Shown piece after piece: positions 19,638 through 44,781 of a DNA stretch of 64,000 nt; within the stretch, counting starts at the first letter, position 1; each line of letters opens with the position of its first letter. The notes beneath the pieces were generated by a model, which was not told where the DNA came from, ran no database searches, and saw nothing but the letters and a program-made list of their open reading frames with translations. This DNA is from Pseudomonadota bacterium (GTDB lineage Bacteria; Pseudomonadota; Gammaproteobacteria; Burkholderiales; Burkholderiaceae_C). Location of the stretch: assembly GCA_029780695.1 (NCBI GenBank), contig JAKOYD010000043.1, forward strand, positions 1 through 64,000. The letters run 5' to 3'. Both the position numbers and the translations under genes were made by a program.

Positions 19638-19679
19638 TTTGTCTGCGATGGCCGGCGCGGTGGCGCGGCGGGGTCTTGA

Positions 19680-20540
19680 TCAACCCTTGGCGACCGGCAG
19701 CCCGGGTGTGCGGCTCCACTCGCTCCAGCTGCCGGCGTACAGCGCAGCGGGCGGGTAGCCGGCCAGTTCCATGGCCAGCACGTTGGGCACGGCGCTGACG
19801 CCGCTGCCACAGTGGTGCACCACGCCAGCGGGGTCGCGCCCGGCCAGCAGCTGGTCAAATTCAGCGCGAAGTTGCTGGCGCGGTTTGAAGCGCCCGTCGG
19901 CGCCCAGGTTGTCGGTGAAAGGGCGGTTCAGCGCGCCGGGGATGTGGCCGGCCACGGGGTCCAGCGGCTCGACCTCGCCGCGATAGCGCGGGCCGCCGCG
20001 GGCGTCGATCAGCGTTTGCGCGGGCTGGGTCAGCCGGGCCGCGACTTCGCTGGTGTGGGCCAGTGCGCGCAGCGCGGGCCGCAGGGTGAAATCGCCGCGC
20101 GGGCGAGCCATTGGCGGGCCGGACTCGACGGCGCCGCCGGCCGCTTGCCAAGCCTGCAGGCCACCGTCGAGCACGGCGACGGCATCGTGGCCGGCCCATT
20201 TCAGCATCCACCACAGGCGGCCGCAGTAGTTGGCGCCCTGGCGGTCGTAGACCACGGCCTGCATGGCGTTATTGAAGCCCAGCGCTTGCAGGGTCTGCGC
20301 AAACAGCTCTCTTTTTGGTAGCGGATGGCGACCGCCGTTGACGGCGTTGGTGGGGTCGTGGGCGCTCAGGTCGCGCTCCAGGTGCGCCTGTTGGGCGCCG
20401 GCCACATGCTGGTCGGCAAACATTTCGTCGGCCTTGGCCGGGTTGCCCAGTTCAGCGCTGCAGTCGAACACCATCAGCGGCGCACCGCTGGCTTGCAGGG
20501 TCTTCAGCTGGTCGGCGGAGATCAGGTGCGTGTAGGTCAT
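19680..20540 (-). CDS. sulfurtransferase (3-mercaptopyruvate/thiosulfate type)
   Basis: A 286-residue protein with two rhodanese domains. The inactive N-terminal domain spans about residues 1-150 and contains ARG/DRQG-type turns (VVYDRQGANYCGRLWW). The catalytic C-terminal domain carries CGSGVSAVPN, with the persulfide Cys near residue 241. CGSGV is closer to mercaptopyruvate sulfurtransferases (CG[ST]GV) than to thiosulfate rhodaneses (CRxGxR). It moves sulfane sulfur to cyanide or thiol acceptors in the cytoplasm. One base separates its start from the stop of the upstream EamA gene, so the two are probably co-transcribed. Confidence 0.9.
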   Translation of the reverse strand: MTYTHLISADQLKTLQASGAPLMVFDCSAELGNPAKADEMFADQHVAGAQQAHLERDLSAHDPTNAVNGGRHPLPKRELFAQTLQALGFNNAMQAVVYDRQGANYCGRLWWMLKWAGHDAVAVLDGGLQAWQAAGGAVESGPPMARPRGDFTLRPALRALAHTSEVAARLTQPAQTLIDARGGPRYRGEVEPLDPVAGHIPGALNRPFTDNLGADGRFKPRQQLRAEFDQLLAGRDPAGVVHHCGSGVSAVPNVLAMELAGYPPAALYAGSWSEWSRTPGLPVAKG

Positions 20541-30192: not shown

Positions 30193-31317
30193 TTACCGCG
30201 GCGCCTTGGCCCGCTGCCGCCTGGCTTGAGGAAACCGCCACCACGGCAGCACCTGGGTCAGTGACCGCACCTGGCCGCTGTGCGACGGCTGGTAGCCGGG
30301 CAACGCACCCAGCGCCTGCTGCCAGGCGGCGCTGGCCAGCACCGCGCGCAGCGCCGCCACGGGCGGCTCGTCCAGCGCCGATTTCAGGCACACGAAGTGG
30401 TAGTCCTCCGTCAGCAGCGGCACGAAGTCCAGCCCCCGCGCCCGCGCCGCCGCCTCGATGCCCAGGCCCGCGTCGGCCTGGCCCGACGCGATGGCCTGCG
30501 CCACCGCGGCGTGCGAGGGCTCGGTCGTGGCGTGCCCGACGATGCGCGATGCCGCGATGCCGTCCCTTGCCAGCAATTCGTCCAGCAGCAGCCGCGTGCC
30601 GGTGCCGCGCGCGCGGTTGACGAAGCGCGCGTGCGTGCGCGCCAGGTCCGACAGCGACGCGATGCCCAGCGGGTTGCCGGACCGCACCATCAGCCCCTGC
30701 GTGCGCGTGGCAAAGCCGATCAGCTTGTGCTGGCCCGGCTGCAGCAGCGGCTTGTAGGTGCGCTCGGCCAGCGAGCCGACGCCCGCGTCAGGCAGCGTGT
30801 GAAAACCGGCCATGATGCAGCGGCCCTCGTTCAAGGCCGCGATGGCGTCAACGCTGCCCACGAAGCGGATGTCCAGGTGCAGCGTGGCGGTGTCTGGCGC
30901 GGCGCCGACGTGCTCGCGCAAGGTACTCAGCGCATCGTCGTGGCTGGCGTGAAACGTCAGCACGTGCGCCTGCTCGTCGAAGGCGATGGCAAAGCTGCGC
31001 TGCAGCGCGGCGCGCAGCGCCTCGATCTGCGGCGCCAGCCGCGCCTGCGCCTGGCGCTCGGACCACAGCAGCTTGTCACCGAATTCGGACAGGCGCGCGC
31101 GCTGGCCCTTTTCCCAGTGCAGCAGCGGCTGGCCCAGCTCCTGTTCCCAGCGCTTGAGTTCGCCCCACACGTGGCGGTACGAAAGCTGCAGCGCCTTGGC
31201 CGCGCCGGAAATGGAGCCCTGGCTGCGCACCGCCTGCAGCAGGTCCAGCAAGGGGTTGCGGATCAGCGGGCCAGCGCCGTCCGCGTCCAGTGAATACGAC
31301 AGTCCGATCTTGTACAC
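30193..31317 (-). CDS. ModE-type HTH fused to molybdate/tungstate-binding-protein-like domain; probable tungstate-responsive regulator
   Basis: A 374-residue regulator. Residues about 20-90 match the ModE winged helix (LLQAVRSQGSISGAAKALQLSYRHVW split over the helix pair). Residues about 110-345 form a periplasmic-binding-protein-like domain (VGSVDAIAALNEGRCIMAGFH, FVNRARGTGTRLLLDEL, AVAQAIASGQADAGLGIEA) in place of the TOBE domains of ModE. The gene is divergent from tupBCA, and a perfect TATGCA-N6-TGCATA palindrome lies between them at 31382-31401. I infer that the C-terminal domain binds tungstate (or the W/Mo cofactor) and the HTH binds that palindrome. It is not a transporter protein, since it has no signal peptide. 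Direct proof is lacking. Confidence 0.8.
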   Translation of the reverse strand: MYKIGLSYSLDADGAGPLIRNPLLDLLQAVRSQGSISGAAKALQLSYRHVWGELKRWEQELGQPLLHWEKGQRARLSEFGDKLLWSERQAQARLAPQIEALRAALQRSFAIAFDEQAHVLTFHASHDDALSTLREHVGAAPDTATLHLDIRFVGSVDAIAALNEGRCIMAGFHTLPDAGVGSLAERTYKPLLQPGQHKLIGFATRTQGLMVRSGNPLGIASLSDLARTHARFVNRARGTGTRLLLDELLARDGIAASRIVGHATTEPSHAAVAQAIASGQADAGLGIEAAARARGLDFVPLLTEDYHFVCLKSALDEPPVAALRAVLASAAWQQALGALPGYQPSHSGQVRSLTQVLPWWRFPQARRQRAKAPR

Positions 31318-31381: not shown

Positions 31382-31401
31382 GTATGCAATCAATTGCATA
31401 G
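31382..31401. promoter_or_regulatory. candidate operator TATGCA-N6-TGCATA upstream of tupB
   Basis: The perfect palindrome TATGCA(31383-31388)-ATCAAT-TGCATA(31395-31400) is flanked by G on each side. Its right arm ends 42 bp before the tupB ATG. The same palindrome with the same spacer length and the same distance to the start codon occurs upstream of the aldehyde oxidoreductase operon (40879-40898). Confidence 0.7.
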
Positions 31402-31442
31402 CTCACCATCCCCAATGCAAGGGCCTGGTGGCGCGGTATAGC

Positions 31443-32195
31443 ATGGCGACCACCGTGAACACCTTCGCCGACAGCGCCCGCACCGCGCTGCGCCTCGTTT
31501 CTTCGTTCGACCCCGCGTTGTGGACCATCGTGGCGCGCTCGCTGGCCGTCAGCGCCACTGCTTGCGCCATCGCCTACGGCATCGGGCTGGCCGCGGGCGC
31601 CTGGCTGGGCGTGGCGCGCTTTCGTGGCCGGGGCCTGGTGCTGACGCTGCTCAACACGCTGCTGGCGCTGCCGTCGGTGGTGGTGGGGCTGCTGGTGTAC
31701 CTGCTGCTGTCGCGCAGCGGGCCGCTGGGTTTTCTGGGCTGGATGTTCACCTTCCAGGCCATGGTGGTGGCGCAGGTGGTGCTGGTGGTGCCCGTGGTGA
31801 CGGCCCTCACGCGCCAGACCGTGGAAGACGCCGACGTGCAGCATGGCGAGCAACTGGCCTCGCTGGGCGCGGGCCGCTTCACGCGTGGGCTGCTGCTGGC
31901 CTGGGACGAGCGCTACGCATTGCTGACGGTGCTGATGGCCGCCTTCGGCCGCGCCGTGTCCGAAGTGGGCGCGGTGATGATCGTCGGCGGCAACATCGAC
32001 GGCTTTACCCGCGTGATGACCACCGCCATCGCGCTGGAAACCAGCAAGGGCGACCTGCCGCTGGCGCTGGGGTTGGGCATCGTGCTGCTGGCGGTGGTGC
32101 TGCTGCTCAACGCGCTGATGGCCGTTGTGCGGGGCTGGCGCGAGCGGGTCGACGGCATCACCACGGCGGCCACGCGCGGGCTGGTGGCAACGTGA
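31443..32195 (+). CDS. tupB: tungstate ABC transporter permease
   Basis: A 250-residue inner-membrane permease with five to six helices and the ABC-permease cytoplasmic loop (DADVQHGEQLASLGAGRFTRG, with EAA-like A...LGAG). GRAVSEVGAVMIVGGNI follows, which is typical of the TupB/molybdate-like permeases. It forms the channel for tungstate. The ATG at 31443 is 42 bp after the shared palindrome. The Shine-Dalgarno is weak. The stop overlaps the GTG of tupC (GTGA), implying coupled translation. Confidence 0.88.
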   Translation: MATTVNTFADSARTALRLVSSFDPALWTIVARSLAVSATACAIAYGIGLAAGAWLGVARFRGRGLVLTLLNTLLALPSVVVGLLVYLLLSRSGPLGFLGWMFTFQAMVVAQVVLVVPVVTALTRQTVEDADVQHGEQLASLGAGRFTRGLLLAWDERYALLTVLMAAFGRAVSEVGAVMIVGGNIDGFTRVMTTAIALETSKGDLPLALGLGIVLLAVVLLLNALMAVVRGWRERVDGITTAATRGLVAT

Positions 32196-32998
32196 ACGCG
32201 CCCGACGCGTCGCTGATTCTGCCAGGCGCGGCGCTGCGGGCCGCGGCCCGGCACGCGCAAGCCTCGGCGGTCGACGCGCCGCCTCTGATCGCGCTGCACG
32301 ACGTCGGCATGCGCTTTGGCGCCGTGCAGGCGCTGCAGGGCGTCACGCTGCAGGTGCGCGCCGGCGAAAGCGTTGCGCTGATCGGTGGCAACGGCTGTGG
32401 CAAAAGCACGCTGCTGCGCGTGGTGCACGGGCTGGTGGCGCCCACCGACGGCCAATTGCAGGCGCCGCCGCGCGCGGCGCAGGCCATGCTATTTCAGCGG
32501 CCGTGGATGCTGCGCACCACCGTGGCGCGCAATATCGCCATCGGCCTGTGGTTGCGCGGCGCGCGCTGGACCGACGCCAGCGCGCGCGCCATGCAGGCAC
32601 TGGAGCGCGTGCAACTGGCGCCGCTGGCCGGGCGCGGCGCGCGCGGCCTGTCGGGCGGCCAGCAGCAGCGGCTGGCGCTGGCGCGCGCCTGGGCGCAGCG
32701 GCCGCGCTTGCTGCTGCTTGACGAGCCCACCGCCAGCCTTGACCCGCACGCCAAGCACGAGGTCGAGACGTTGATGCATGAATTCACCCACGCGCCCGCC
32801 GCGGCCGGCCAGCCGCCGCTGACCATGCTGTTCGCCAGCCACAACCTGGGCCAGGTCAAGCGGCTGGCGCGCCGCGTGGTCTACCTGGAGCAAGGCCGCG
32901 TGCTGGCCGATTTGCCGGTCGATGACTTCTTCGACCGCGAGCGGCTGCGCGCTGTTTCACCCCAGGCCGATTTGTTTCTGAAAGGAGAGTTGTTGTGA
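32192..32998 (+). CDS. tupC: tungstate ABC transporter ATP-binding protein
   Basis: A 268-residue ABC ATPase: Walker A GGNGCGKST, signature LSGGQQQRLALARA, Walker B LLLLDEPTASLD and the switch His in FASHNLGQVKRLA. The N-terminus carries about 30 residues before the Walker A domain that are unlike the core. It starts with GTG overlapping the tupB stop and ends overlapping the GTG of tupA. It has no TOBE domain, in contrast with ModC in the same island. Confidence 0.88.
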   Translation: MNAPDASLILPGAALRAAARHAQASAVDAPPLIALHDVGMRFGAVQALQGVTLQVRAGESVALIGGNGCGKSTLLRVVHGLVAPTDGQLQAPPRAAQAMLFQRPWMLRTTVARNIAIGLWLRGARWTDASARAMQALERVQLAPLAGRGARGLSGGQQQRLALARAWAQRPRLLLLDEPTASLDPHAKHEVETLMHEFTHAPAAAGQPPLTMLFASHNLGQVKRLARRVVYLEQGRVLADLPVDDFFDRERLRAVSPQADLFLKGELL

Positions 32999-33822
32999 GC
33001 GTTTTCAAGACTTTCAAGCCGCTGGCGCATGCCAGATATGCGTTTGCAGCTACGCTATTGGTAGCGTCCGTGGCGGCGTCGGCGCAGTCCATCGTCATGG
33101 CCTCGACCACTTCGACCGAGCAGTCGGGCCTGTTTTCGTACCTGCTGCCCGAGTTCAAGAAGGCCAACGGCATCGATATCAAGGTGGTGGCGCTGGGCAC
33201 CGGCCAGGCGCTTGACATGGCGCGGCGCGGCGACGCCGACGTGGTGTTCGTGCACGACCAGAAGGCCGAGGAAAAATTCATCGCCGACGGCTTTGGCGTC
33301 AAGCGCTACCCGGTCATGTACAACGACTTCATCCTGGTCGGGCCGAAGGCCGACCCGGCCGGCGCGCGCGGCAAGGACATCGTTGACGGCCTGAAGAAGC
33401 TGGCCGCTTCCCATGCGCCCTTCGTTTCGCGCGGCGACAAAAGCGGCACGCACGCGGCCGAACTGCGCTTTTGGGAACAGGCGGGCCTGCAGAACGCCAA
33501 GGGCAGCGGTTACAAGGAATGCGGCTGCGGCATGGGCCCGGCGCTGAACATGGCGGCATCCACCGGCGCCTACGTGCTGGCCGACCGCGGCACCTGGCTC
33601 AACTTCAAGAACCGCGCCGACTTGGGCGTCCTGGTCGAAGGCGACAAGCGCCTGTTCAACCAGTACGGCGTGATGGTGGTCAACCCGGCCAAGCACCCGC
33701 AGGTCAAGCAGGCCGAGGCGCAGAAGTTCGTCGACTGGATCACCTCGCCCGCCGGGCAGAACGTCATCGCCAGCTACAAGATTGGCGGCGAGCAGCTGTT
33801 CTTTCCCAATGCCGACAAATGA
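32995..33822 (+). CDS. tupA: tungstate-binding periplasmic protein
   Basis: A 275-residue binding protein with a signal peptide (cleavage probably after ASA near residue 30) and the TupA oxyanion motifs STTSTEQSGL (about 37-46) and SRGDKSGTH (about 142-150), which distinguish it from ModA. It captures tungstate with high affinity for the TupBC transporter. GTG start overlaps the tupC stop; AAAGGAGA at 32981-32988 is a strong ribosome binding site. Part of the signal peptide core (FAATLLVAS) is encoded by a dispersed GCTACGCTATTGGTAGC repeat. Confidence 0.9.
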   Translation: MSVFKTFKPLAHARYAFAATLLVASVAASAQSIVMASTTSTEQSGLFSYLLPEFKKANGIDIKVVALGTGQALDMARRGDADVVFVHDQKAEEKFIADGFGVKRYPVMYNDFILVGPKADPAGARGKDIVDGLKKLAASHAPFVSRGDKSGTHAAELRFWEQAGLQNAKGSGYKECGCGMGPALNMAASTGAYVLADRGTWLNFKNRADLGVLVEGDKRLFNQYGVMVVNPAKHPQVKQAEAQKFVDWITSPAGQNVIASYKIGGEQLFFPNADK

Positions 33823-33844
33823 CGCGGCGCTGCTGCCGGGGCTG

Positions 33845-33868
33845 GCTATGCGCTCCTTGATGCATAGC
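33845..33868. repeat. GCTATGC-N10-GCATAGC hairpin in the tupA/modC convergent gap
   Basis: Perfect 7-bp arms with a 10-nt loop that contains GCTCCTTGAT. The loop matches the reverse complement of the dispersed GCTATTG...AGGAGC repeats in this window, so it is probably a member of that family. It may still act as a terminator stem. Confidence 0.5.
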
Positions 33869-33920
33869 GCGTCACTGGCTCGGCGCAAGCGTTGCGCGGC
33901 ATCGGGCCGCCGCGAACGCC

Positions 33921-35093
33921 TCAGTCCAGCACCGCCACGCCCTTGATCTGCGCGAACACGCGCTGCCCCGGCGCCAGCCGCAGCGCGTCGGCCGACTTGC
34001 GCGTGACGCGCGCCAGCAACGGCGTGTCGCCCGCGTGCAATGCCACCAGCACCTGCGCGGGGCCATCGTCGGCCAGCGCGTCGACGGTGGCCGGCAACAT
34101 GTTGAGGATGCTGGTGTCGCGCGCCGCGCTCAACGTCAGGCTGACGTCGCGCGCCTGCACGCGCAGGCGCACGCGCTGCCCGGGCCGCCGCGCGGGCGCG
34201 CCGGGGGCCGGCACGCACTGAATGGTGCCGCCGGCAAAGCGCACGTGCAGCAGGTGGTAGGCGGCGTCAAAGTGATCGACCACGCCGTCGATCAGCGCGC
34301 CGGCGGCGTCGCCATGCGCTTGGGCGACGTCGAGCCGCGCCAGCAAACCGGCCACCGGGCCTTGCGCCACCGCCTGGCCGCCGTGCAGCAACAGCAGGTG
34401 GTCGGCCAGACGCGCCACTTCGTCCAGCGAATGGGTGACGTACAGCACGGGGATGCGCAGCTCGCGCGCCAGCCGCTCGAACCAGGGCAGCACCTCGGCC
34501 TTGCGCGCGGCGTCCAGCGCGGCCAGCGGCTCGTCCAGCAACAGCAGGCGCGGGCTGGTGGCCAGCGCGCGCGCGATGGCCACCCGCTGGCGTTCGCCGC
34601 CCGACAGTTGCGCCGGTCGGCGGTTCAACAGGTGGCCGATGCCGAGCAGCTCGATGGCCTGCGCCAATGGCACGCGGCGTTGCGCGGCGGGCACGCGCCT
34701 GAGGCCGAAGTCCAGGTTGCCCCGCGCGCTCAGGTGATCGAACAGGCTGGCTTCCTGAAACACCATGCCCAGCGCGCGCTGGTGCGTCGGGCGCCATACG
34801 CCGGCGGCGTCGTCCTGCCACACGTCGCCGGCGACGACCACGCGCCCGGGCGCGGGCCGCGTCAGCCCGGCGACGGCGCGCAGCAGCGTGGTCTTGCCGC
34901 AGCCCGAGGGGCCAAACACGGCGGTGACGCCGCGGCCCGGCAGGCGCAGGTCGACGTCGAGCCTGAAGCCCGCGCCATGGTCCACGCGCGCGCGCAGCGC
35001 CACGGGCAACGATTCCTGGTCATCAAATCGGCCGCCAGCGCTGAGTGGGTCAGCCCGTGCAGCTATCGAATCAGTAGTTTCAGGCGCTGTCAT
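33921..35093 (-). CDS. modC: molybdate ABC transporter ATP-binding protein
   Basis: A 390-residue ABC ATPase with Walker [10 protein letters not shown], signature [15 protein letters not shown], Walker [13 protein letters not shown], and a C-terminal TOBE/Mop domain ([19 protein letters not shown]...[12 protein letters not shown]) that senses molybdate in ModC proteins. It powers ModAB uptake. The start ATG overlaps the modB stop as ATGA. The first 35 or so residues are an extension absent from typical ModC; part of it is encoded by a dispersed GCTATCGAATCAGTAG repeat (35060-35080). Confidence 0.92.
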
Positions 35094-35764
35094 GGCCGGC
35101 CCTTGCGCGCCTGCAGCAAATGCAGCGCCAGCAACACGCCAAAGCTGAACACCAGCATGCCGCCGGCCAGCCAGTGCGCCTGCGCGTATTCCAGCGCCTC
35201 GACGTGGTCGTAGATCTGTACCGAAATCACCCGCGTGGCGCCGGGGATGTTGCCGCCGATCATCAGCACCACGCCGAATTCGCCCAGTGTGTGCGCGAAG
35301 CCCATCACCGCCCCGGTCAGGTAGCCGGGCCGCGCCAGCGGCAGCGCAACGTGCCAGAAGGTGTCGAGCGGACTGGCGCGCAGGGTGGCGGCGGCTTCCA
35401 GTGGACGGTCGCCAATGGCTTCGAACGCGTTGACGAGCGGCTGCACCACAAAAGGCAGCGAATAGATGATCGAGCCCAGCAGCAGTCCCCAGAAGGTGAA
35501 CGACAGCAGGCCCCAGCCCAACGCCTGAGTCAACTGCCCCAGCGGCCCATTCGGCCCCAGCGCCACCAGCAGATAGAAGCCCAGCACCGACGGCGGCAAC
35601 ACCAGCGGCAGGGCCACCAGCGCGCGCACCGGCACGCGCCAGCGCGAACGCCCACGCGCCAGCCACCAGGCCAGCGGCGTGCCCCCGATCAGCAGGAGCA
35701 GCGTGGTCGCCAGCGCCAGTTCAACCGAAAGGCGAACGGCGGCAAGGCTGGTGGGGTCGAGCAT
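35090..35764 (-). CDS. modB: molybdate ABC transporter permease
   Basis: A 224-residue inner-membrane permease with five to six helices and the ModB signatures [36 protein letters not shown] (EAA loop) and [18 protein letters not shown]. It pairs with ModC, with which it overlaps by four bases. It lies 195 bp downstream of modA on the same strand. That gap contains GC-rich repeat-like DNA and no gene. Confidence 0.93.
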
Positions 35765-35959
35765 GGTGGGGGACGGTGAAGCACGGGCGCGGGCAAATCT
35801 GGGCGGCAGGCGTTGTTTCAGGGGTGCGCGATGCGGGATTTTCTCCTTCGCCCGCGGGGCAAACGCCGGCAGGGGGGCGGCCCTGTGGGCATGGCACGCG
35901 CGGTCGGCTCCTGCCCCAACCGCGGCCCAGCACGGGAAGGGGAAGGACAGCTTGCGTGT

Positions 35960-36715
35960 TCACTTCAGGCTGTAGCCGTACCCACGGATCAACTCTTTTA
36001 CCTTGGGCGTGCGCAGCAACGCCATCCACGCCGTGGCGGCTGGGTTGGCCTGCGCGCGCTTGAGGATCACGGCGTCCTGGATGATTGGTGCGTGCAGGTG
36101 GGCCGGCACGACCCACCACGAGCCGCCCTTGATCGCACCCGCTTCCTGGATTTGCGCCAGCGCCACAAAGCCCAGTTCGGCGTTGCCGGTGGCGACGAAG
36201 TTGTAGGTCTGGCCGATGCTTTCGCCCGTCACCAGCTTGGGTTGAACGGCGGCGTACACGCCCAGCTTGTTCATCGCCTCCACCGCCGCCGCGCCGTAGG
36301 GAGCCAGCTTGGGGTTGGCAATTGCCAGCTTGTTGAAGGCGCCGCTTCTCAGCACCGCGCCCTGGTTGTCGACCACGCCAGGCCTGGCCGACCACAGCAC
36401 CAGCTGGCCCACGGCGTAGGTGAAGCGCGAGCCGGGCAGGGCGTCGCCTTCCTTCTCCAGCCTGGTCGGCCGTTCGTCGTCGGCGGCCAGCAGCACGTCG
36501 AATGGCGCGCCGTTCTTGATCTGCGTGTAGAACGCCCCGGTGGCGCCGAACGACAGCCTGGCCGTGTGGCCGGTGGTCTTCTCGAAAATAGCGGCCAGCA
36601 CCTTGGCCGGCGCGGTGAAGTTGGCGGCGACGGCGATGTGAACCTCGTCGGCGTGCGCGGCCATAGAGACGAGCCAGGCGGCCAGCGGGGCCAGCAAGCG
36701 TGGGTTCAGACGCAT
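35960..36715 (-). CDS. modA: molybdate-binding periplasmic protein
   Basis: A 251-residue binding protein with a signal peptide cleaved near AHA (residue 22), the ModA N-terminal core VHIAVAANFTAPAKVLAAIFE and GATGAFYTQIKNGAPFDVLLAADDERP oxyanion-binding loops. The ATG at 36715 has a GGAG upstream, and the frame is open to 36745. A ModE-like box is centred 78 bp upstream of the start (36780-36806), so it is likely repressed by ModE when molybdate is plentiful. Confidence 0.93.
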   Translation of the reverse strand: MRLNPRLLAPLAAWLVSMAAHADEVHIAVAANFTAPAKVLAAIFEKTTGHTARLSFGATGAFYTQIKNGAPFDVLLAADDERPTRLEKEGDALPGSRFTYAVGQLVLWSARPGVVDNQGAVLRSGAFNKLAIANPKLAPYGAAAVEAMNKLGVYAAVQPKLVTGESIGQTYNFVATGNAELGFVALAQIQEAGAIKGGSWWVVPAHLHAPIIQDAVILKRAQANPAATAWMALLRTPKVKELIRGYGYSLK

Positions 36716-36779
36716 GGGTAAGACTCCTTGAAAAGATCGTGTCATTCGCGCTTTCAGGGCAATGACGGAAATGGGCTGT

Positions 36780-36806
36780 ATCGCTGTTCAAAAAAAGAAT
36801 AGCGAA
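36780..36806. promoter_or_regulatory. ModE-like box upstream of modA
   Basis: ATCGCTGTTC-N7-GAATAGCGAA is an imperfect palindrome with the layout of known ModE operators (ATCG.TATATA-N6/7-TATATAACGAT). The spacer is seven A. The modE gene lies 2.2 kb away and the operator faces modA. Confidence 0.7.
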
Positions 36807-36823
36807 ATTGTAGTGGCCATGCC

Positions 36824-37984
36824 TCACGGCACCGGCGGCGCGAACCTCGGGTTGTGGGTAAAGCTTGCATCCGTCAGCGTTTTCAAGAATGCCAACAGAT
36901 CGCTCTTGTCCTGCGCGGCCAATCGAATCTGCCCGATCAGCGGATCCTTGAACGGATTCGCGCGCCCGTCGCCCGCATACAGGCCATTGCCCACGTCGCG
37001 CCCACCGGCGGCATAGAAGTCGATCACCGCTTCCAGTGTGCCGATGCTGCCGTCGTGCATGTACGGCGCGGTCAACTCAATATTGCGCAGGCTGGCGGCG
37101 CGGAACTTGCCCATGTCGGCGGCTTGCTTGGTCACCTCGAAAATGCCCCGGTTCGGCTCGGGGTAGGCCCCGGTGCTGCCGATGTTGAACAGGCCGGTGT
37201 TGTGAAACGGTGCTTCGGCGGGCGCGGCGGCGCTGCTGACGAACTGGTCATTGAAATTGGGGCTGCCATGGCATCGCGCGCACAGTGCCTGGTTGCCGAA
37301 GAAAAGCGCGCGACCGCGCTCCTCGGCCGCGGTCAGCGTCGCCTGGCCAGCCTGCCATTGGTCGAACTTGCTGCTGGCGGAAATCAAGGTGCGCTCGAAC
37401 GTGGCGATGGCGCGAATGATGTTGTCCCAGCTCACGGCGTCAGCCTGCCCGGCAAAGGCGGCGCCAAAGCGCGCGCGATAGTCGGCATCGCCCGCGATGC
37501 GGGCCAGCACGGCAGCGCGGTTGGCTTCGTTCACGCCCATCTCGACCGGCGCGGTGTTGAACAGCGGCGCGGCCATTTGCTGCTCCAGCGTGCGCACGTC
37601 GGGCCGTGCCCAATTGAAGGTGGTGTTGTAGGCCACGTTGGTCAGCGGTTGTGCATTGCGCGGATGCACCTCGCCGGTGGCGCCGCGCGCCAGCGCGCGG
37701 TCGTCGGTGAAGGCGCTGGCCTGAGCGTGGCAGCCGCTGCACGCCAACGTGCCGTTGCCCGACAGGCGCGGTTCATGAAACAGGCGCCGGCCCAGTTCGA
37801 CCTTGGCGTCGTTCATCGGGTTGTCGGCCGGCACCAGCGGCGGCGCCCAACCGGCGGGCAGGCTCCATTGCCAGGGTGTGGGGTCGGGCGTGGGTGCGGC
37901 GGTGTTGGCGCCGCCGCCACATGCGGCCAGCCACACGACGCTCGCCAGGGCGACAGGGATCGATGTTGTGCCAATGCGCCGCAT
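36824..37984 (-). CDS. diheme cytochrome c peroxidase-like lipoprotein (MbnH/MauG type)
   Basis: A 386-residue exported protein. A lipobox (VVWLAAC, Cys22) indicates a lipoprotein. Two haem c sites, CSGCH (about residue 82) and CARCH (about residue 237), with the YMHDGSIGTLEAVIDFY segment of diheme peroxidases near the C-terminus. The start of the mature part (SLPAGWAPPLVPADNPM, KVELGRRLF) is the pattern of MbnH-type enzymes, which oxidise a protein or metal-bound partner through a bis-Fe(IV) state. No MbnP partner gene is present. A ModE-like box lies 27 bp upstream of the ATG. The physiological substrate is unknown. Confidence 0.85.
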   Translation of the reverse strand: MRRIGTTSIPVALASVVWLAACGGGANTAAPTPDPTPWQWSLPAGWAPPLVPADNPMNDAKVELGRRLFHEPRLSGNGTLACSGCHAQASAFTDDRALARGATGEVHPRNAQPLTNVAYNTTFNWARPDVRTLEQQMAAPLFNTAPVEMGVNEANRAAVLARIAGDADYRARFGAAFAGQADAVSWDNIIRAIATFERTLISASSKFDQWQAGQATLTAAEERGRALFFGNQALCARCHGSPNFNDQFVSSAAAPAEAPFHNTGLFNIGSTGAYPEPNRGIFEVTKQAADMGKFRAASLRNIELTAPYMHDGSIGTLEAVIDFYAAGGRDVGNGLYAGDGRANPFKDPLIGQIRLAAQDKSDLLAFLKTLTDASFTHNPRFAPPVP

Positions 37985-38010
37985 GTGTGGTCCTCTTTTC
38001 TTCTCGAGTC

Positions 38011-38037
38011 ATCGCTATTCATTTGTAGAATAACGAT
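38011..38037. promoter_or_regulatory. ModE-like box between peroxidase and lipoprotein genes
   Basis: ATCGCTATTC-N7-GAATAACGAT is palindromic except at one position. It fits the ModE consensus better than the modA copy. It sits 27 bp from the minus-strand peroxidase start and 37 bp from the plus-strand lipoprotein start, so one site could govern both directions. Confidence 0.75.
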
Positions 38038-38073
38038 TGTATCGACCACCCAGATCCAGAAAGCGAGGGCGAC

Positions 38074-39018
38074 ATGCGTTCCAACTTTTCCTCTTCCACC
38101 ACGGCGTCGCTCGCCTCGCGTCTGCGGCGAGCGCTGCTGACCGGCGCGGCGCTGGTGCTGCTGGGGCTGTCGGCCTGCGGCGGCAGCGACGAGCTCGACC
38201 GCGGCCCGACCACGTTGCCGGTATCGGCCGCGCTCAATGGTCTGTACTGGGACGTCGGCACATCCAGGTTGTATCTGACCGACGATGCCACCAACACCAT
38301 CCGCGTGTGGGATGGCGACAAGAGCTTCGCGTCATCGATGGCGTTGCCCTCGCCGCCGGCCAGCGGAGTCACGCTGGGGCAGATCGCCGGTGGCAAGGAC
38401 GGCACGCTGTACGTCACGCGCTTCGGTTTTGGCACCGACGGCACCGTGATCGCGGTACCGAAGATGGGCGCAGCCGTCAACCTGAAGGGGCTGGACGCCA
38501 CGCGCCGGCGCATTGGCCTGGCCATTGCACCCGACGGCGCGCTGATAGACGGCTGGTTCATCAAGGGCGGCGCGGGCGCGCTCAGCTTGTTGACGGTAAA
38601 CGGTGTGCAGGCAAGCGAGACGGAACTGGTCACCGGTCTGGGCAAACCCGTGGGCGTGGCGGTGGCGGGCGATCAACTTTTTGTCAGCGACCAGAACACC
38701 GGCAACGTGCTGTCGTATTCGCTCAGCCGGGTGCGTGCCAAGCCAGCCACGCTGGCCGATGGCAAGGTACTGGCCACCTTCACCACGCTCGACGGCATCG
38801 ACCTGATGACCGCCGCCAGCGACGGCACGCTGTTCTTCGGCGGCAGCGGCGGGCGGCTGTTTCAGCTCAGCCCCAAGGGCGAGGTCAAGGTGCTGGCCAC
38901 AGGCTGGCCGAAGGTGCGCGGAGTCGCGTATGACGAGGCCAACCGGCGCTTGTTTGTCGCCGTGGTTGCCGCCGACGCGAGCAGTCAGTCAAGCATCCGC
39001 ATCGTCCCGATCAATTGA
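38074..39018 (+). CDS. beta-propeller (NHL/SMP-30-like) lipoprotein of unknown function
   Basis: A 314-residue protein. A lipobox-type signal (LLGLSAC, about residues 29-35, followed by GGS) indicates a lipoprotein. The rest is a repeat of propeller-type strands (LYWDVGTSRLYLTDDATNTI, GVAVAGDQLFVSDQNTGNV, GVAYDEANRRLFVAVV), as in NHL or SMP-30-like domains, which bind partners or metal. It lies 31 bp upstream of modE on the same strand and is divergent from the diheme peroxidase across the ModE-like box. The shared site suggests that the peroxidase and propeller work together in the periplasm. No enzyme motif is visible. Confidence 0.7.
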   Translation: MRSNFSSSTTASLASRLRRALLTGAALVLLGLSACGGSDELDRGPTTLPVSAALNGLYWDVGTSRLYLTDDATNTIRVWDGDKSFASSMALPSPPASGVTLGQIAGGKDGTLYVTRFGFGTDGTVIAVPKMGAAVNLKGLDATRRRIGLAIAPDGALIDGWFIKGGAGALSLLTVNGVQASETELVTGLGKPVGVAVAGDQLFVSDQNTGNVLSYSLSRVRAKPATLADGKVLATFTTLDGIDLMTAASDGTLFFGGSGGRLFQLSPKGEVKVLATGWPKVRGVAYDEANRRLFVAVVAADASSQSSIRIVPIN

Positions 39019-39049
39019 GGGCGATGTTGGCGGCGTCGTCGGCCTCACA

Positions 39050-39817
39050 ATGGCCGACATGGTTAAACGATTGTTGTCCACGCGGGCCATGGGCTATGCC
39101 CAGGCCGACAAGCGCATTCAGATCTTGCATCTGGTGGGCCGCCATGGCTCCATCTCACAGGCCGCGCGCGCGGCCGGCGTCAGCTACAAGGCGGCGTGGC
39201 AAGCCATTCATACGCTGACCAACCTGGCGGGCGAGCCGCTGGTGGACAGCAGCGTGGGCGGCGCCGGTGGCGGCGGCGCGCGGCTGACGCCCGCAGGCCA
39301 GCGGCTGCTGGCGGCGGCCGAGCAACTGGACGCCGCCCGCCGCGGTGTGCTGGCGCGTGTCAACGGCGCTGACAGCCCGGCGCTGGCGGGGCCGCGCACC
39401 AGCATGCGCAACCACCTGCGCGCCAGCGTGGTGGCGCTGCAAAGCGACGGCGCGCGCGACCCCATGGTGCGCGTGTCGCTGGCGCTGGCTGGCGGGGGCG
39501 CGCTGGCGTCGCTGATCACGCGCGAAAGCGCCGAGCTGCTGGGCCTGTCGCCGGGCCTGGCCGTGCTGGCGCTGTGCAAGGCGACGGCGGTGCGCGTGCA
39601 GGCGCCGGACGGCGCGGTGCCCGCGGCGGCAACCAACGGCCTGCCGGGCCGCGTGCAGCGCGTGGCGCGCGGCGTGCAGCGCGACGAGGTGGTGGTCACC
39701 GTGGCGGACGACATGCAACTGGTGGGCTTTGCCGCGCGGCCCAACCGCCTGCGCGCCGGCAGCCGCGCGCAGGCATGGGTGGATGAAACCGCGGTGGTGC
39801 TGGCGCTGGCGGGCTGA
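39050..39817 (+). CDS. modE: molybdate-responsive regulator ModE
   Basis: A 255-residue protein with the ModE winged helix (ILHLVGRHGSISQAARAAGVSYKAAWQAI, read as helix-turn-helix at about residues 25-55) and two C-terminal TOBE/Mop domains (about residues 120-190 and 195-255, the first beginning SMRNHLRASVV). It binds molybdate and usually represses mod genes. Probable targets in the window are the two ModE-like boxes. ATG 39050 was chosen over an in-frame ATG at 39059. It follows the propeller lipoprotein gene by 31 bp, so it may regulate its own operon. Confidence 0.88.
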   Translation: MADMVKRLLSTRAMGYAQADKRIQILHLVGRHGSISQAARAAGVSYKAAWQAIHTLTNLAGEPLVDSSVGGAGGGGARLTPAGQRLLAAAEQLDAARRGVLARVNGADSPALAGPRTSMRNHLRASVVALQSDGARDPMVRVSLALAGGGALASLITRESAELLGLSPGLAVLALCKATAVRVQAPDGAVPAAATNGLPGRVQRVARGVQRDEVVVTVADDMQLVGFAARPNRLRAGSRAQAWVDETAVVLALAG

Positions 39818-39924
39818 GCGCGCGGCGCGCAGCCCGTCGTGTGACGGTCGGCTGAGTGCCGCCCTAAAAAAAGCCGCCTGCGCTTGTCCAGAAAGCAAGT
39901 CTAGCTATATAAAACGCAGCAAAC

Positions 39925-40764
39925 TCAGTCCGCCGACCACAGCAGCGGAAACAGCGCATCGGCCATCGGCGCGCCCGCCGGCAGCCGGTCGGCCAGGCCC
40001 GGAAAGGGCGGCGACGTGACCCAGTTGCGCGGCGCGTGCGTGATGTCGTCGCCCAGCATGCGCACCGAGAACACGCGCCGCCGCGCATCGCCGTCCACCC
40101 CGCCCGCCGCGTGCAGGCTGAGCATGTGAAAGGCGATCACGTCGCCCGGCTCCACCGCCCAGCCGAGGATGGGGAAGTCATCGCGCGCCGCCTCGATATC
40201 GGGCAGGTCGGCCAGGCTGCCTTCGGGGAACCACTTGGCCTGGTGGTCCATGAAGCTGCGCGGCATCAGCCACGGGCCGGTGTGCGAGCCGGCCACGAAT
40301 TCGAGCGTGGAATGGCGCCGCACCGGGTCGACGGGGATCCAGAAGCTGATGTTCTGCCGCCCTTCGATGTTGTAGTAGGGCTGGTCCTGGTGCCACGGCG
40401 TGCGCTGGCGCGTGCCGGGCTCCTTGGTCAGCATGTGGTCGTGGTACAGGCGCACGCCGTGGCTTTGCATCAGCAAGCCGGCGGCGGCGGCCAGCGGCGA
40501 ATCGAAGATGACGCGGCGGTAAGCGTCGTTGTCCTGCCAGCAGCAGAAGTCCTCGATGAAGAAACCGGGGTCGTCGGGGCGGCTGGCGACCTTGGCGCGC
40601 GGGCTGGGGGTGGCGATGTTGGCGTTGATGCCATCGCGCAACAGGGCCACTTCGTCCGCGTTCAGCAGTTGACGCAGGCACACCGCGCCGTCGCGCGCGA
40701 AAGCCCCCACCAGATCGGGCGTGACCACCGCCTGCGCGCGGCGCGTGAATTCAAGGGTTTGCAT
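39925..40764 (-). CDS. phytanoyl-CoA dioxygenase (PhyH) family protein
   Basis: A 279-residue Fe(II)/2-oxoglutarate oxygenase of the PhyH family. The iron ligands are visible in WHQDQPYYNI (His-x-Asp) and the distal FHMLSLHAAGG His. The NAAISFW-like ISFWIPVDPV strand and the Arg of RRVFSVRMLG (2-oxoglutarate) fit the fold. The substrate is unknown. The ATG at 40764 (MQTLEF) was chosen. It sits between modE and the aldehyde oxidoreductase operon, with the aor operator in its upstream region. Confidence 0.82.
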   Translation of the reverse strand: MQTLEFTRRAQAVVTPDLVGAFARDGAVCLRQLLNADEVALLRDGINANIATPSPRAKVASRPDDPGFFIEDFCCWQDNDAYRRVIFDSPLAAAAGLLMQSHGVRLYHDHMLTKEPGTRQRTPWHQDQPYYNIEGRQNISFWIPVDPVRRHSTLEFVAGSHTGPWLMPRSFMDHQAKWFPEGSLADLPDIEAARDDFPILGWAVEPGDVIAFHMLSLHAAGGVDGDARRRVFSVRMLGDDITHAPRNWVTSPPFPGLADRLPAGAPMADALFPLLWSAD

Positions 40765-40878
40765 GTCCCACATTGTGCGCGCCGCGCCGGGGCTGGCCGG
40801 CGGGGCTCTCCCGGACCGCCGAATACCTGATTAGGGTTTCCCCGGGGCAACCCTTGGGGTCGGCATTGCGCACAATTC

Positions 40879-40898
40879 CTATGCAAACGAATGCATAG
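40879..40898. promoter_or_regulatory. candidate operator TATGCA-N6-TGCATA upstream of the aldehyde oxidoreductase operon
   Basis: The perfect palindrome CTATGCA(40879-40885)-AACGAA-TGCATAG(40892-40898). Its TATGCA...TGCATA core ends 42 bp before the aorA ATG, exactly as in front of tupB. The spacers differ in sequence but are both 6 nt, which argues for a real protein-binding site. Confidence 0.7.
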
Positions 40899-40939: not shown

Positions 40940-41425
40940 ATGCAAAAGGTGTTGCACATCAACGCCGACAAGTGCACCGGCTGTCTGCAATGCGAGATGG
41001 CGTGTTCTTACGAGCATTACGGCGTCTACGCCACGGCCAAGTCGCGCATCAAGGTGTTCGACTTCCACACCACCGGCAAGAAGGTGCCCTACACCTGCAC
41101 GCAGTGCGACGAGGCCTGGTGCCTGCACGCCTGCCCGGTGGAGGCCATCACGGTGGACAAGGGCACGGGCGCAAAAATAGTGTCGGACGCCACTTGCGTG
41201 GGCTGCAAGGTCTGCACCATCGCCTGCCCGTTTGGCACCATCAACTACGTGGCCGAAACCGGCAAGGTGCAGAAGTGCGACCTGTGCCATGACCGCGCCG
41301 AAGGCCCCGCCTGCGTGGAAGCCTGCCCCACCGCCGCCATCACCTATATCGACGCCAACTGGACCGGCTTGGACCGCATGAGGCAGTGGGCCGACAAACT
41401 GGGCAACCAGCCTTCCGCCGCTTGA
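40940..41425 (+). CDS. aorA: polyferredoxin subunit of tungsten aldehyde oxidoreductase
   Basis: A 161-residue electron-transfer subunit with sixteen cysteines in four groups: 12/15/18/22, 53/56/61/65, 86/89/92/96 and 113/116/125/129, enough for four [4Fe-4S] clusters, in the style of the DmsB/HycB family. In the aldehyde oxidoreductase of Aromatoleum a subunit of this size links the W-pterin and FAD subunits. A GAGGAG ribosome binding site precedes the ATG. It is followed 40 bp later by the catalytic subunit gene. Confidence 0.88.
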   Translation: MQKVLHINADKCTGCLQCEMACSYEHYGVYATAKSRIKVFDFHTTGKKVPYTCTQCDEAWCLHACPVEAITVDKGTGAKIVSDATCVGCKVCTIACPFGTINYVAETGKVQKCDLCHDRAEGPACVEACPTAAITYIDANWTGLDRMRQWADKLGNQPSAA

Positions 41426-41465: not shown

Positions 41466-43313
41466 ATGTCCTGGGCTGGAAAAATTCTCCGCGTCAACCT
41501 GACCGAAGGCACCGTCAAATCCGAACCGCTGAACATGGACTGGGCGCGCGCGTACATCGGCTCGCGCGGGCTGGGCACCAAATACCTCACCAGCGAGATC
41601 GATCCTAAGGTCGATCCGCTGTCGGCCGACAACAAGATCATCTGGGCCACCGGGCCGCTGACGGGCACCATGGCCTCGACCGGCGGGCGCTACACCGTCA
41701 TCACCAAGGGGCCGCTCACGGGGGCCATTGCCTGCTCCAACTCGGGCGGCTACTGGGGCGCCGAGCTGAAGATGGCCGGCTGGGACATGGTGATCTTCGA
41801 AGGCAAGAGCCCGAAGCCCGTGTACCTGTACATCAACGACGACACCGCCGAGCTGCGCGACGCCGCCGACATCTGGGGCAAGAGCGTGTGGGAAACCGAG
41901 GAGCACCTCAAGAAAACGCTGCAAGACCCGCTGACGCGCGTGTCCAGCATCGGCAAGGCGGGCGAGAACCAGGTGCTGTTCGCGGCGGTGGTCAACGACT
42001 TGCACCGCGCAGCCGGCCGCTCCGGCGTGGGCGCCGTGATGGGCAGCAAGAACCTGAAAGCCATTGCCGTGCGCGGCACCAAGGGCGTGGGCAACATCCG
42101 CGACCCCAAGGCCTTCATGGCCGAGACCTTTGCGCGCAAGAAGATCCTGCACGAGCACCCCGTCACCGGCCAGGGCCTGCCCACGTTTGGCACGCAGGTG
42201 CTGATGAACGTGATCAACGAAGTCGGCGCGCTGCCCACGCGCAACCACCGCGACGTGCAGTTTGAGGGCGCCAAGGACATTTCCGCCGAAGCCATGGCCA
42301 CGCCGCGCAAGACCGACGGCAAGAAGCACCTGGTCACCAACCAGGCCTGTTTTGGCTGCACCATCGCCTGCGGGCGCATCAGCAAGATCGACGAGACGCA
42401 CTTCACCGTGCAGACCAAGCCGCAGTACTGGGGCGCGAGCGGCGGGTTGGAGTACGAAGCCGCCTGGGCGCTGGGCGCTGCCAACGGCGTGAACGACCTG
42501 GAGGCGCTGCAATACGTCAACCTGCTGTGCAACGAAGAAGGCATCGACCCGATCAGCTTTGGCGCCACCGTGGGCCTGGTGATGGAACTGTATGAGATGG
42601 GCGTGCTCACCAAAGAGCAGATCGGCGTCGAGGCCCCGTTTGGCTCGGCCCAGGCGCTGGCGTTTCTGGCTGAAGAAACGGTGAACGGCCGCGGCTTTGG
42701 CAAGGAGATCGGCACCGGCTCCAAGCGGCTGGCGGCCAAGTACGGCCACCCCGATCTGTCGATGTCGTCCAAGGGCCAGGAGTTTCCGGCCTACGACGGT
42801 CGCGCGATCCAGGGCATTGGCCTGGCCTACGCCACCAGCAACCGCGGCGGCTGCCACCTGCGCGGCTATACGATTGCGTCGGAAGTGCTGGGCATTCCGG
42901 TCAAGACGGAACCCACGGCGACCGAGGGCAAGCCGGAACTGGTCAAAGCCTTTCAGGACGCCACGGCGGCGTTCGATTCGGCGGGTGTGTGCGTGTTCAC
43001 CACCTTTGCCTGGAGCCTGCCCGACCTGGCGCCGCAACTGGCGGCCGCGTGCGACGAAGGCTACACGGTGGAAGAGGTCGAGAAGATCGGCGAGCGCATC
43101 TGGAACATGGAGCGCGAGTTCAACAACGCCGCCGGCTTCACCAAGGCCGACGACAGCCTGCCCAAGCGGCTGAAGACGGAAGCGGCAAAGTCGGGCGGCT
43201 CGAAAGGCGCCGTCAGCCATGTGGACGAGATGCTGCCCAAGTACTACGAAGTGCGCGGCTGGGACGCGGAAGGCCGGCCGACGGCGGCCACGCGCGAGCG
43301 GCTGGGTCTTTGA
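41466..43313 (+). CDS. aorB: tungsten-dependent aldehyde:ferredoxin oxidoreductase, catalytic subunit
   Basis: A 615-residue AOR-family enzyme that oxidises aldehydes to carboxylates at a W-bis-pterin. Cluster ligands are Cys295-x2-Cys298-x3-Cys302 and distal Cys509 (compare Cys288/291/295/494 of the Pyrococcus enzyme). GGLEYEAAWALG with the acidic pair and GGCHLRG with His464 match the active-site Glu and His. AGRSGVGAVMGSKNLKAI is a pterin-phosphate motif. The tungstate importer tupBCA 8 kb away, under a matching operator, supports tungsten rather than molybdenum. Likely roles are detoxification of aldehydes or reverse reduction of acids. Confidence 0.92.
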   Translation: MSWAGKILRVNLTEGTVKSEPLNMDWARAYIGSRGLGTKYLTSEIDPKVDPLSADNKIIWATGPLTGTMASTGGRYTVITKGPLTGAIACSNSGGYWGAELKMAGWDMVIFEGKSPKPVYLYINDDTAELRDAADIWGKSVWETEEHLKKTLQDPLTRVSSIGKAGENQVLFAAVVNDLHRAAGRSGVGAVMGSKNLKAIAVRGTKGVGNIRDPKAFMAETFARKKILHEHPVTGQGLPTFGTQVLMNVINEVGALPTRNHRDVQFEGAKDISAEAMATPRKTDGKKHLVTNQACFGCTIACGRISKIDETHFTVQTKPQYWGASGGLEYEAAWALGAANGVNDLEALQYVNLLCNEEGIDPISFGATVGLVMELYEMGVLTKEQIGVEAPFGSAQALAFLAEETVNGRGFGKEIGTGSKRLAAKYGHPDLSMSSKGQEFPAYDGRAIQGIGLAYATSNRGGCHLRGYTIASEVLGIPVKTEPTATEGKPELVKAFQDATAAFDSAGVCVFTTFAWSLPDLAPQLAAACDEGYTVEEVEKIGERIWNMEREFNNAAGFTKADDSLPKRLKTEAAKSGGSKGAVSHVDEMLPKYYEVRGWDAEGRPTAATRERLGL

Positions 43314-43500: not shown

Positions 43501-44781
43501 ATGCACCACCTCATCCTCGGCGCCGGCCCGGCCGGCGTCATCGCAGCGGAGACGATCCGCAAGCACGCGCCTGGCGACCAGATAACCCTCGTGGGCGACG
43601 AGAAGGAACCGCCGTACTCGCGCATGGCGATTCCCTACCTGCTGGTGGGCGACATCGGCGAGCCCGGCACTTATCTGCGCAAGGGCGCGGACCACTTCGC
43701 CCAGCAGCGCATCGAGTTGACCCACGCACAGGCGACGAAGGTCGATGCGCAGGGCAAGACAGTCACGCTGGACAACGGGCAGACGCTGGCCTTTGACCGC
43801 CTGCTCATCGCCACCGGATCGCACCCCGTGCGGCCGCCGATTCCGGGGCTGGACCTGCCGGGCGTCGAAACCTGCTGGACGCTGCAGGACGCGCGCAACA
43901 TCGCCACCCGCGCCGTGAAGGGCGCGCGCGTGCTGCAGATGGGCGCGGGCTTCATCGGCTGCATCATCATGGAAGCGCTGCAAAAGCGCGGCGTGCAGCT
44001 CAGCGTGGTCGAAATGGGCGACCGCATGGTGCCGCGCATGATGGGCGAGGTGGCGGGCGGCATGATCCGCGACTGGTGTGAGCGCCAGGGCGTTCGCGTG
44101 CACACCGGCCACAAGGTCGAGCGCATCGAACAAGGCGAGGGCGACGCGCTGAAGGTGCACCTGTCGGGTGGCACCGTGCTCGATGCCGATCTGGTCATCA
44201 GCGCCACCGGCGTGCGCCCGGCCATCGGGTTTCTGGAGGGCAGCGGCGTGCAGTGTCTGCTGGGCGTGCTAACGGACGACCGCATGCAGACCAACGTGCC
44301 GGGCATCTACGCCGCGGGCGATTGCGCCGAGGCGTTCGACCCCTTCACCGGCAAGACCATCGTCAGCGCCATCCAGCCCAATGCGGCCGATCAGGCGCGC
44401 GTGGCCGCGCTCAACATGGTGGGGCAGCGCGCGGCGCTCAAGCTGGTCACGCAGATCAACGTGCTCGACACGCTGGGCCTCATTTCCACCAGCTTTGGCA
44501 ACTGGCAGGGCGTGCCCGGTGGCGAACACGCCGAGCTGACCGACACGGCGGCGTGCCGGCACCTCAGCCTGCAGTTCAAGGACGACGTGCTGGTCGGCTG
44601 CAACTCGGTCGGCCTGACCGACCATGTGGGCGTGATGCGGGGCCTGGTCGAAGGCCAGGTCAAACTGGGTGCGTGGAAAGACCGCCTGCTGAGCGACCCG
44701 ACGCTGCTGCCGCAGGCCTACCTGGCCTGCGCGCAGGCGCAGGGCCAGTGGAGCGGGGCGGCCGATACGCGGCGGCGCTGA
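43501..44781 (+). CDS. aorC: FAD-dependent NAD(P)H oxidoreductase subunit of the aldehyde oxidoreductase
   Basis: A 426-residue pyridine nucleotide-disulfide-reductase-fold flavoprotein: N-terminal FAD motif LILGAGPAGVIAAETI, an internal NAD motif (VLQMGAGFIGCIIMEAL) and the FAD-contacting GIYAAGDCAEA. No redox-active CxxxxC is present, as expected for a ferredoxin/NAD-linked subunit like that of Aromatoleum AorC, which lets the enzyme use NAD+. It begins 187 bp after aorB, beyond two repeat hairpins, so its translation may be set apart from aorAB. It ends 21 bp before the MoaD-like gene. Confidence 0.87.
   Translation: MHHLILGAGPAGVIAAETIRKHAPGDQITLVGDEKEPPYSRMAIPYLLVGDIGEPGTYLRKGADHFAQQRIELTHAQATKVDAQGKTVTLDNGQTLAFDRLLIATGSHPVRPPIPGLDLPGVETCWTLQDARNIATRAVKGARVLQMGAGFIGCIIMEALQKRGVQLSVVEMGDRMVPRMMGEVAGGMIRDWCERQGVRVHTGHKVERIEQGEGDALKVHLSGGTVLDADLVISATGVRPAIGFLEGSGVQCLLGVLTDDRMQTNVPGIYAAGDCAEAFDPFTGKTIVSAIQPNAADQARVAALNMVGQRAALKLVTQINVLDTLGLISTSFGNWQGVPGGEHAELTDTAACRHLSLQFKDDVLVGCNSVGLTDHVGVMRGLVEGQVKLGAWKDRLLSDPTLLPQAYLACAQAQGQWSGAADTRRR

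Follow-up and report, generated by a model that had tools for sequence, protein, structure and literature searches.

Two exact copies of the palindrome TATGCA-N6-TGCATA are present in the 64,000-nucleotide stretch of a Burkholderiaceae_C genome analysed here (positions 1 to 64,000 of contig JAKOYD010000043.1, hereafter the window), one in front of the tungstate importer genes tupBCA and the other in front of the aor genes, which encode an aldehyde oxidoreductase of the tungsten type. With a probability of roughly 0.8, these palindromes are the operators of the regulator encoded at 30193-31317, a protein that joins a helix-turn-helix (HTH) to a PBP_like domain, and together they define a small tungsten regulon. 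It is very highly probable that such a regulon and operator exist and highly probable that the 30193-31317 product is the protein acting at the operators, while tungstate is a likely effector.

Operator 1 (31383-31400, forward strand; TATGCAATCAATTGCATA) lies before tupB with the spacer ATCAAT, and operator 2 (40880-40897, forward strand; TATGCAAACGAATGCATA) lies before aorA with the spacer AACGAA; a check of the window sequence found both to be exact, and both are kept in relatives. A reading made earlier from the letters of the window (the sequence-only reading) had correctly recognized the two palindromes, although its limits, 31382-31401 and 40879-40898, include one surplus base per side. 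In the 3,915,284 bases (3.9 Mb) of the source genome, which is 84% complete, the exact pattern is confined to two places, the tup and aor sites just named, against 0.026 copies expected from base composition, and one extra place is added when one mismatch is allowed. That the palindrome might be abundant at random sites, an objection raised by the same reading, is thus countered by the rarity of exact copies elsewhere in this genome. In a scan of the window alone with two mismatches allowed, 30 of 100 shuffles also gave two matches, which is unremarkable, so that it is the exactness of the copies, together with their conservation, that gives the finding its weight. On these grounds the palindrome is considered real and behaves as a candidate operator.

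Conservation was evaluated in 200 genomes of the family, a site being defined by at most two mismatches unless stated otherwise. Homologues of the regulator were found at E 1e-20 in 101 of the 200 genomes, and 82 of these 101 were considered to hold orthologs by a cut-off of at least 320 bits, fixed after the hits had been inspected. The tupB gene was found in 114 genomes, with 104 upstream regions scored and 10 left out because the start was not located; aorB was found in 57, with 56 aorA upstream regions scored and one genome (G008) omitted as it offered no upstream region. A further, more distant copy of aorB (locus L090, in G082) had no aorA match. The site precedes tupB in 67 of 75 ortholog-holding genomes versus 3 of 29 others, and aorA in 36 of 46 versus 2 of 10, shuffled upstream regions carrying it in about 0.5%; both sites are present in 33 of the 44 ortholog genomes scored at both genes. 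When a single genome per genus is retained, the contrast persists both at tupB (49/55 versus 1/19, p 3e-11) and at aorA (26/34 versus 0/6, p 8e-4). In parallel, four genomes that possess tup and aor (G024, G064, G106 and G151) are devoid of the ortholog and of both sites. Among 80 named loci, the aorA site was found in 60 of the 76 scored, including those of Diaphorobacter, Limnohabitans, Polaromonas, Rhodoferax, Hydrogenophaga and Ottowia, and was absent, within the same 76, at aorA of both Tepidimonas loci and of Tibeticola. Across the genomes compared, the putative operator is conserved at these genes and its presence follows the regulator; the conservation upstream of tup and aor and the co-occurrence with the regulator, for which the sequence-only reading had proposed a search, are therefore borne out across the family, and the claim of a tungsten regulon that links uptake to the enzyme, separate from ModE, is supported.

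The site is also closely linked to the regulator gene itself. Regulator loci numbered 83, of which 17 were unscored; the site is found in 45 of the 46 scored cases in which the regulator diverges from tupB, and it often spans the GTG start of the regulator, as TATGCAC reads GTGCATA on the other strand. Most sites were missed by a scan confined to the region outside the regulator start and were recovered when the scan began 45 bp within the gene. At the 20 scored regulator loci with no divergent tupB, the site is absent in 17 and present in three (L012, L032 and L092), and in the first two of these the gene that diverges from the regulator is tupA. When tupB is located away from the regulator (G133, G011, G076, G146 and G113), the site stays before tupB. 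The pattern TATGCA-N6-TKCATA occurs in 83 of the 200 genomes, compared with 7 of 200, G000 included, for the reversed control, and 67 of the 110 distinct places listed fall at the regulator, tupB, aorA, fdsG or a paralogous regulator.

The regulator gene (30193-31317, reverse strand) encodes 374 amino acids with a LysR/ModE-type HTH (HTH_1), a long linker helix and a PBP_like effector domain. Both Pfam matches pass their cut-offs, HTH_1 with 43 bits (cut-off 26.6) and PBP_like (PF12727) with 199 bits (cut-off 27). At E 0.001, neither LysR_substrate (PF03466) nor HTH_17 was reported in the protein, PF12727 and HTH_1 being found there instead, and the Pfam search found no TOBE (molybdate) domain. 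In the AlphaFold model (mean pLDDT 85.9) the linker helix spans residues 78-112, and the motif LSYRHVWG, which the model places in the third helix of the HTH, is unchanged in 18 of 18 orthologs. The 50 Foldseek matches listed are LysR-type regulators, with TM values of 0.32-0.43 by query length. Against the ModE HTH model TIGR00637 the regulator reaches 38.4 bits, under the cut-off of 98.5. The earlier description as a ModE-type HTH on a periplasmic-binding-protein-like domain thus holds for the PBP_like domain and for an HTH that is ModE-like, and needs correction in that the protein is LysR-like overall, with the HTH_1 and LysR-like fold of the LysR family, and stays below the ModE cut-off.

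The importer genes follow operator 1 on the forward strand and comprise tupB, the tungstate permease (31455-32195), a tupC-like ABC ATPase domain with the remainder of the open reading frame (ORF) 31520-32998 (32333-32998; ABC_tran 103 bits), and tupA, the tungstate-binding protein (32995-33822). The permease is over the cut-off for ABC_perm1 (229 bits) and under that of the tupB model NF041773 (169 bits, cut-off 320); similarly, TupA passes for PBP_like_2 and is below the cut-off of NF041772 (239 bits, cut-off 400). The start of tupB is probably GTG 31455 and not ATG 31443, the start previously chosen, as aligned homologues begin at the codon matching GTG 31455, with most matches starting at query residues 3-6; moreover, the predicted -10-like hexamer TAGCAT (31439-31444, forward strand), 38 nt past operator 1, overlaps ATG 31443. 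The distance of 42 bp between the right arm and the start codon, noted at both genes in the sequence-only reading, is correct to ATG 31443 and to ATG 40940; since GTG 31455 is the probable start, the tupB half is set aside as a probable artefact of the start chosen. In 68 of 70 tup promoters a -10-like hexamer (TACGAT, GAGAAT, TAGCAT and similar) lies downstream of the site, at an offset of 23-24 in 51 and of 36-39 in 17. These offsets, picked after looking at the sequences, are reached by shuffled sequence in 3% and 4%, respectively (7% together), and put the centre of the site near -45 or, as in the window, near -60. In many relatives the hexamer lies about 9-10 nt ahead of the start codon, which suggests that the tup mRNA is nearly leaderless there.

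The aor operon, also on the forward strand, comprises aorA (40940-41425), a 4Fe-4S protein of aldehyde oxidoreductase with Fer4_11 and related matches, aorB (41466-43313), the large subunit of an AFOR-family (tungsten) aldehyde oxidoreductase (AFOR_C 443 bits, AFOR_N 275 bits), and aorC (43501-44781), the FAD/NAD subunit (Pyr_redox_2 199 bits; NF045765 284 bits, below its cut-off of 475). The order of the three subunits is as described for Aromatoleum aromaticum (PMC6365974). Four ORFs at 44-47 kb of the window gave no Pfam match. The predicted -10-like hexamer of aorA, CACAAT (40871-40876, forward strand), lies 3 nt ahead of operator 2, and a hexamer of the type NA[CA]AAT is found 2-3 nt upstream of the site in 19 of the 38 aor promoters having it, so that the palindrome would cover the likely transcription start in those promoters. 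A second site, at no more than three mismatches, is present exactly 16 bp off in 10 of the 38. In addition, a GGG(T/A)(T/A) box precedes the -10-like hexamer by 35 nt in 15 of the 19 hexamer-bearing promoters; in relatives the box is often CTAGGGTT-N2/3-CCCTAG-like, at a fixed distance ahead of the hexamer. Given this fixed distance, the box is possibly an activator site for aor, and the TAGGGTTTCCCC box of the window (40832-40843, forward strand) is a possible site of a separate aor activator.

Some observations weigh against the assignment of the palindromes to the regulator or against the promoter geometry. At no more than one mismatch, the source genome has three places versus two for the reversed control pattern, so that only the exact copies stand out. 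In ortholog-holding genomes the site is missing from 8 of the 75 tup promoters and from 10 of the 46 at aor; three of the eight siteless tup genomes (G130, G031 and G157) carry it at the regulator start instead. Conversely, three genomes have the tup site with no ortholog. In one of them, G163, the site lies where the contig ends, beside an HTH fragment read as a cut regulator, and the other two, G037 and G161, which belong to one genus (L184 and L185), show no PF12727 above the cut-off, the ORFs read beside tup being acyl-CoA dehydrogenases and no regulator, for which either a divergent regulator or a recent loss may account. Moreover, the other 19 of the 38 aor promoters with the site have no hexamer of the above type and the promoter there was not recognized, two tup promoters (G114 and G133) match neither -10 offset, and 43 of the 110 listed places of the pattern lie elsewhere, representing look-alike palindromes in relatives.

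Among the look-alikes, TATGCAACCAGTTGCATA is present in several genomes, in one orientation or the other, and a copy of this recurring palindrome, TATGCAACTGGTTGCATA, is found at 2491-2508 of L186, 17 bp ahead of an FMN oxidoreductase ORF. As TATGCAACCAGTTGCATA is also present in three genomes with no regulator match (G125, G159 and G026), it was set aside as a site of the regulator and treated as the site of another factor. The other extra sites (L180, L187-L193) are inside ORFs or beside ORFs with no match or an unrelated one.

In the proposed mechanism, the regulon would include the regulator's own gene, the importer tupBCA and the aor operon, with fds in some relatives. The regulator would bind the operator as a dimer and sense tungstate by its PBP_like domain. 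In the tungstate-free form it would activate tup from the site centred near -45 or -60, repress aor from the site on the aor start region and repress its own gene, and the binding of tungstate would reverse the control, lowering uptake and raising the enzyme. This reciprocal direction, suggested by the activator position at tup, the repressor position at aor and the overlap with the regulator's own start, has about even chances of being correct. A phased site upstream of the promoter is typical of activators, and the nearer tup class, which abuts the -35 region, could also block polymerase. The latter possibility would suit a classical co-repressor whose tungstate-bound form shuts tup, with aor and the regulator gene controlled in the same sense, as would the example of ModE, described in PMC11980592 as a repressor of modABCD. 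However, a co-repressor would silence the tungsten enzyme at times of abundant tungsten, and the spacing at tup takes two discrete values, the farther of which places the edge of the site near -51 and leaves the promoter uncovered; thus this form of control is unlikely.

The operator is not restricted to tup and aor. In G163 the site adjoins a 2Fe-2S thioredoxin-like gene (190.8 bits, formate dehydrogenase gamma cut-off 198), after which come a gene of the 51-kDa flavoprotein type and one for the alpha subunit of formate dehydrogenase, so that the cluster is an fds operon; the first two fds genes were checked in G145, and in other genomes the first gene only, by similarity. Of 49 fdsG matches 30 were scored, and the site is present at 7 of the 30 fdsG-type genes. 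Seven genomes have a tup-type regulator (only the fragment in the case of G163) but lack an FdsR-like neighbour; the fdsG site is present in five of them (G163, G145, G002, G014 and G099) and absent in G121 and G058. In two other families of the same order, taken to be Burkholderiales from the named loci, nine FdsR-like loci beside fdsG have a copy of the palindrome, at no more than one mismatch in six and at two mismatches in three. In seven loci (L294, L295, L298, L299, L305, L306 and L417), the intergenic region between an FdsR-like regulator and an fdsG-type gene contains two copies at no more than two mismatches, 75-80 bp apart, a spacing that would suit a tetrameric LysR-type regulator. 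On the Halomonas replicon (L417), the two copies, spaced by 77 bp, are flanked by a 2Fe-2S thioredoxin-like gene and a gene for an HTH_1 + PBP_like protein, an architecture common to the regulator, the L183 protein and the L417 protein. In the two other families of the order, the site is present at 5 of 6 tupB-adjacent regulators. The fds, Halomonas and other-family sites thus point to the operator as a property of a wider regulator family. In the source genome, 84% complete, no fdsG match was found at E 1e-20, and the regulator's neighbour is tup. On a plasmid of Diaphorobacter sp. HDW4B (L418), a regulator homologue has as neighbours a substrate-binding protein and a formate dehydrogenase cluster of the FDH3 type, and variant sites TATGCTC...TCATA precede both (12913-12930 and 19664-19681), within the chance expectation of the scan.

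Another reading is that the effector is other than tungstate, such as formate, molybdate or the precursor of a cofactor. FdsR of Ralstonia eutropha / Cupriavidus necator (Oh and Bowien 1999, a reference entry in PMC8808070) responds to formate (PMC7057948). It is probably the nearest characterized relative of the regulator, a label that derives from the fds neighbourhood. The FdsR-like homologues, about 40% identical to the regulator, adjoin fdsG-type genes and share the same kind of operator, often in two copies, yet they differ from the regulator in their target operon and perhaps in their effector. On the other hand, the regulator and the site stay with tup in genomes where aorB was not found (e.g., G003 and G085), and a tungstate importer is an unlikely target of formate, making an effector other than tungstate improbable.

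It is very improbable that the sites belong to the separate ModE-like protein at 38930-39817, which has HTH_1 and TOBE and is also under the TIGR00637 cut-off (89.5 versus 98.5 bits). The Mo-box is a palindrome with an N6 spacer, the same geometry as seen here, and the HTH of ModE belongs to the same Pfam family as that of the regulator, from which ModE differs as the regulator has no TOBE, lies under the ModE model cut-off and has a putative operator with a different half-site. However, the Mo-box consensus fits operator 2 with no fewer than 8 mismatches, the modA-like ORF (35960-36745) has a different palindrome, and the aorA upstream region carries no site in G106 and G165, where ModE-type HTH matches reach 81-82 bits; the ModE-like protein was therefore rejected as the source of the sites. 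The imperfect palindrome before the modA-like ORF, TCGCTGTTC-N7-GAATAGCGA at 36781-36805, 36-60 bp ahead of it, is likely a ModE box. Finally, an origin as fragments of GCTAT...ATAGC repeats or terminators, the main rival offered by the sequence-only reading and favoured by a hairpin between two convergent genes, is a negligible prospect and was rejected, as the spacers of the three copies in the window differ (14, 7 and 3) and the N6 sites are kept before genes in many genera, a conservation that largely contradicts it. The hairpin, GCTATGC-N10-GCATAGC at 33845-33868, lies between the convergent ends of tupA and an ABC/TOBE ORF and has no T run.

The proposed assignment of the palindromes to the HTH and PBP_like regulator offers a testable tungsten regulon, separate from ModE, for facultative and aerobic betaproteobacteria. 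It was seen in many members of the Comamonadaceae and extends, at the tup and fds loci, to further families of the order. As a sequence marker, the operator may help to predict additional operons that depend on tungsten, for instance fds in certain genera. No description of a TATGCA-N6-TGCATA operator was found in the literature searched, in line with the sequence-only reading, which knew of none; the control of tup and aor by one regulator is, by contrast, already known from TaoR.

TunR of sulfate reducers exerts tungstate-responsive control of transport, as proposed for the regulator, and differs from it in having a recombinase-like DNA-binding domain and a ModE-like sensor domain. TaoR (DVU3193, tupR; Rajeev et al. 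2019) of Desulfovibrio vulgaris reportedly controls tup and aor in opposite directions, acting positively on aor, whereas the geometry found here suggests repression of aor and activation of tup. TaoR has a PBP-like effector domain like that of the regulator (PMC11980592) and is linked to tungstate uptake by tupABC (PMC10102598) and to a tungsten aldehyde oxidoreductase (PMC11980592), the two kinds of target that carry the candidate sites here; its DNA-binding domain is HTH_17 (PMC11980592), in contrast to the LysR/ModE-type HTH and TATGCA-N6-TGCATA operator described above. The regulator would work like TaoR and, by its DNA-binding domain, is not a member of the TaoR family. More tentatively, and somewhat short of an even chance, it could be a mirror image of TaoR, in which the position of the palindrome relative to the promoter would alone set uptake on and enzymes off in the tungstate-free state; equally tentatively, a PBP_like sensor might have been joined in evolution to a LysR/ModE-type HTH. 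If so, the operator-bearing formate dehydrogenases of some relatives would be candidate tungsten enzymes. All in all, the regulator is apparently a differently built counterpart of TaoR of sulfate reducers, suggesting that the coupling of tungstate uptake to the enzyme may have arisen repeatedly with different DNA-binding domains.

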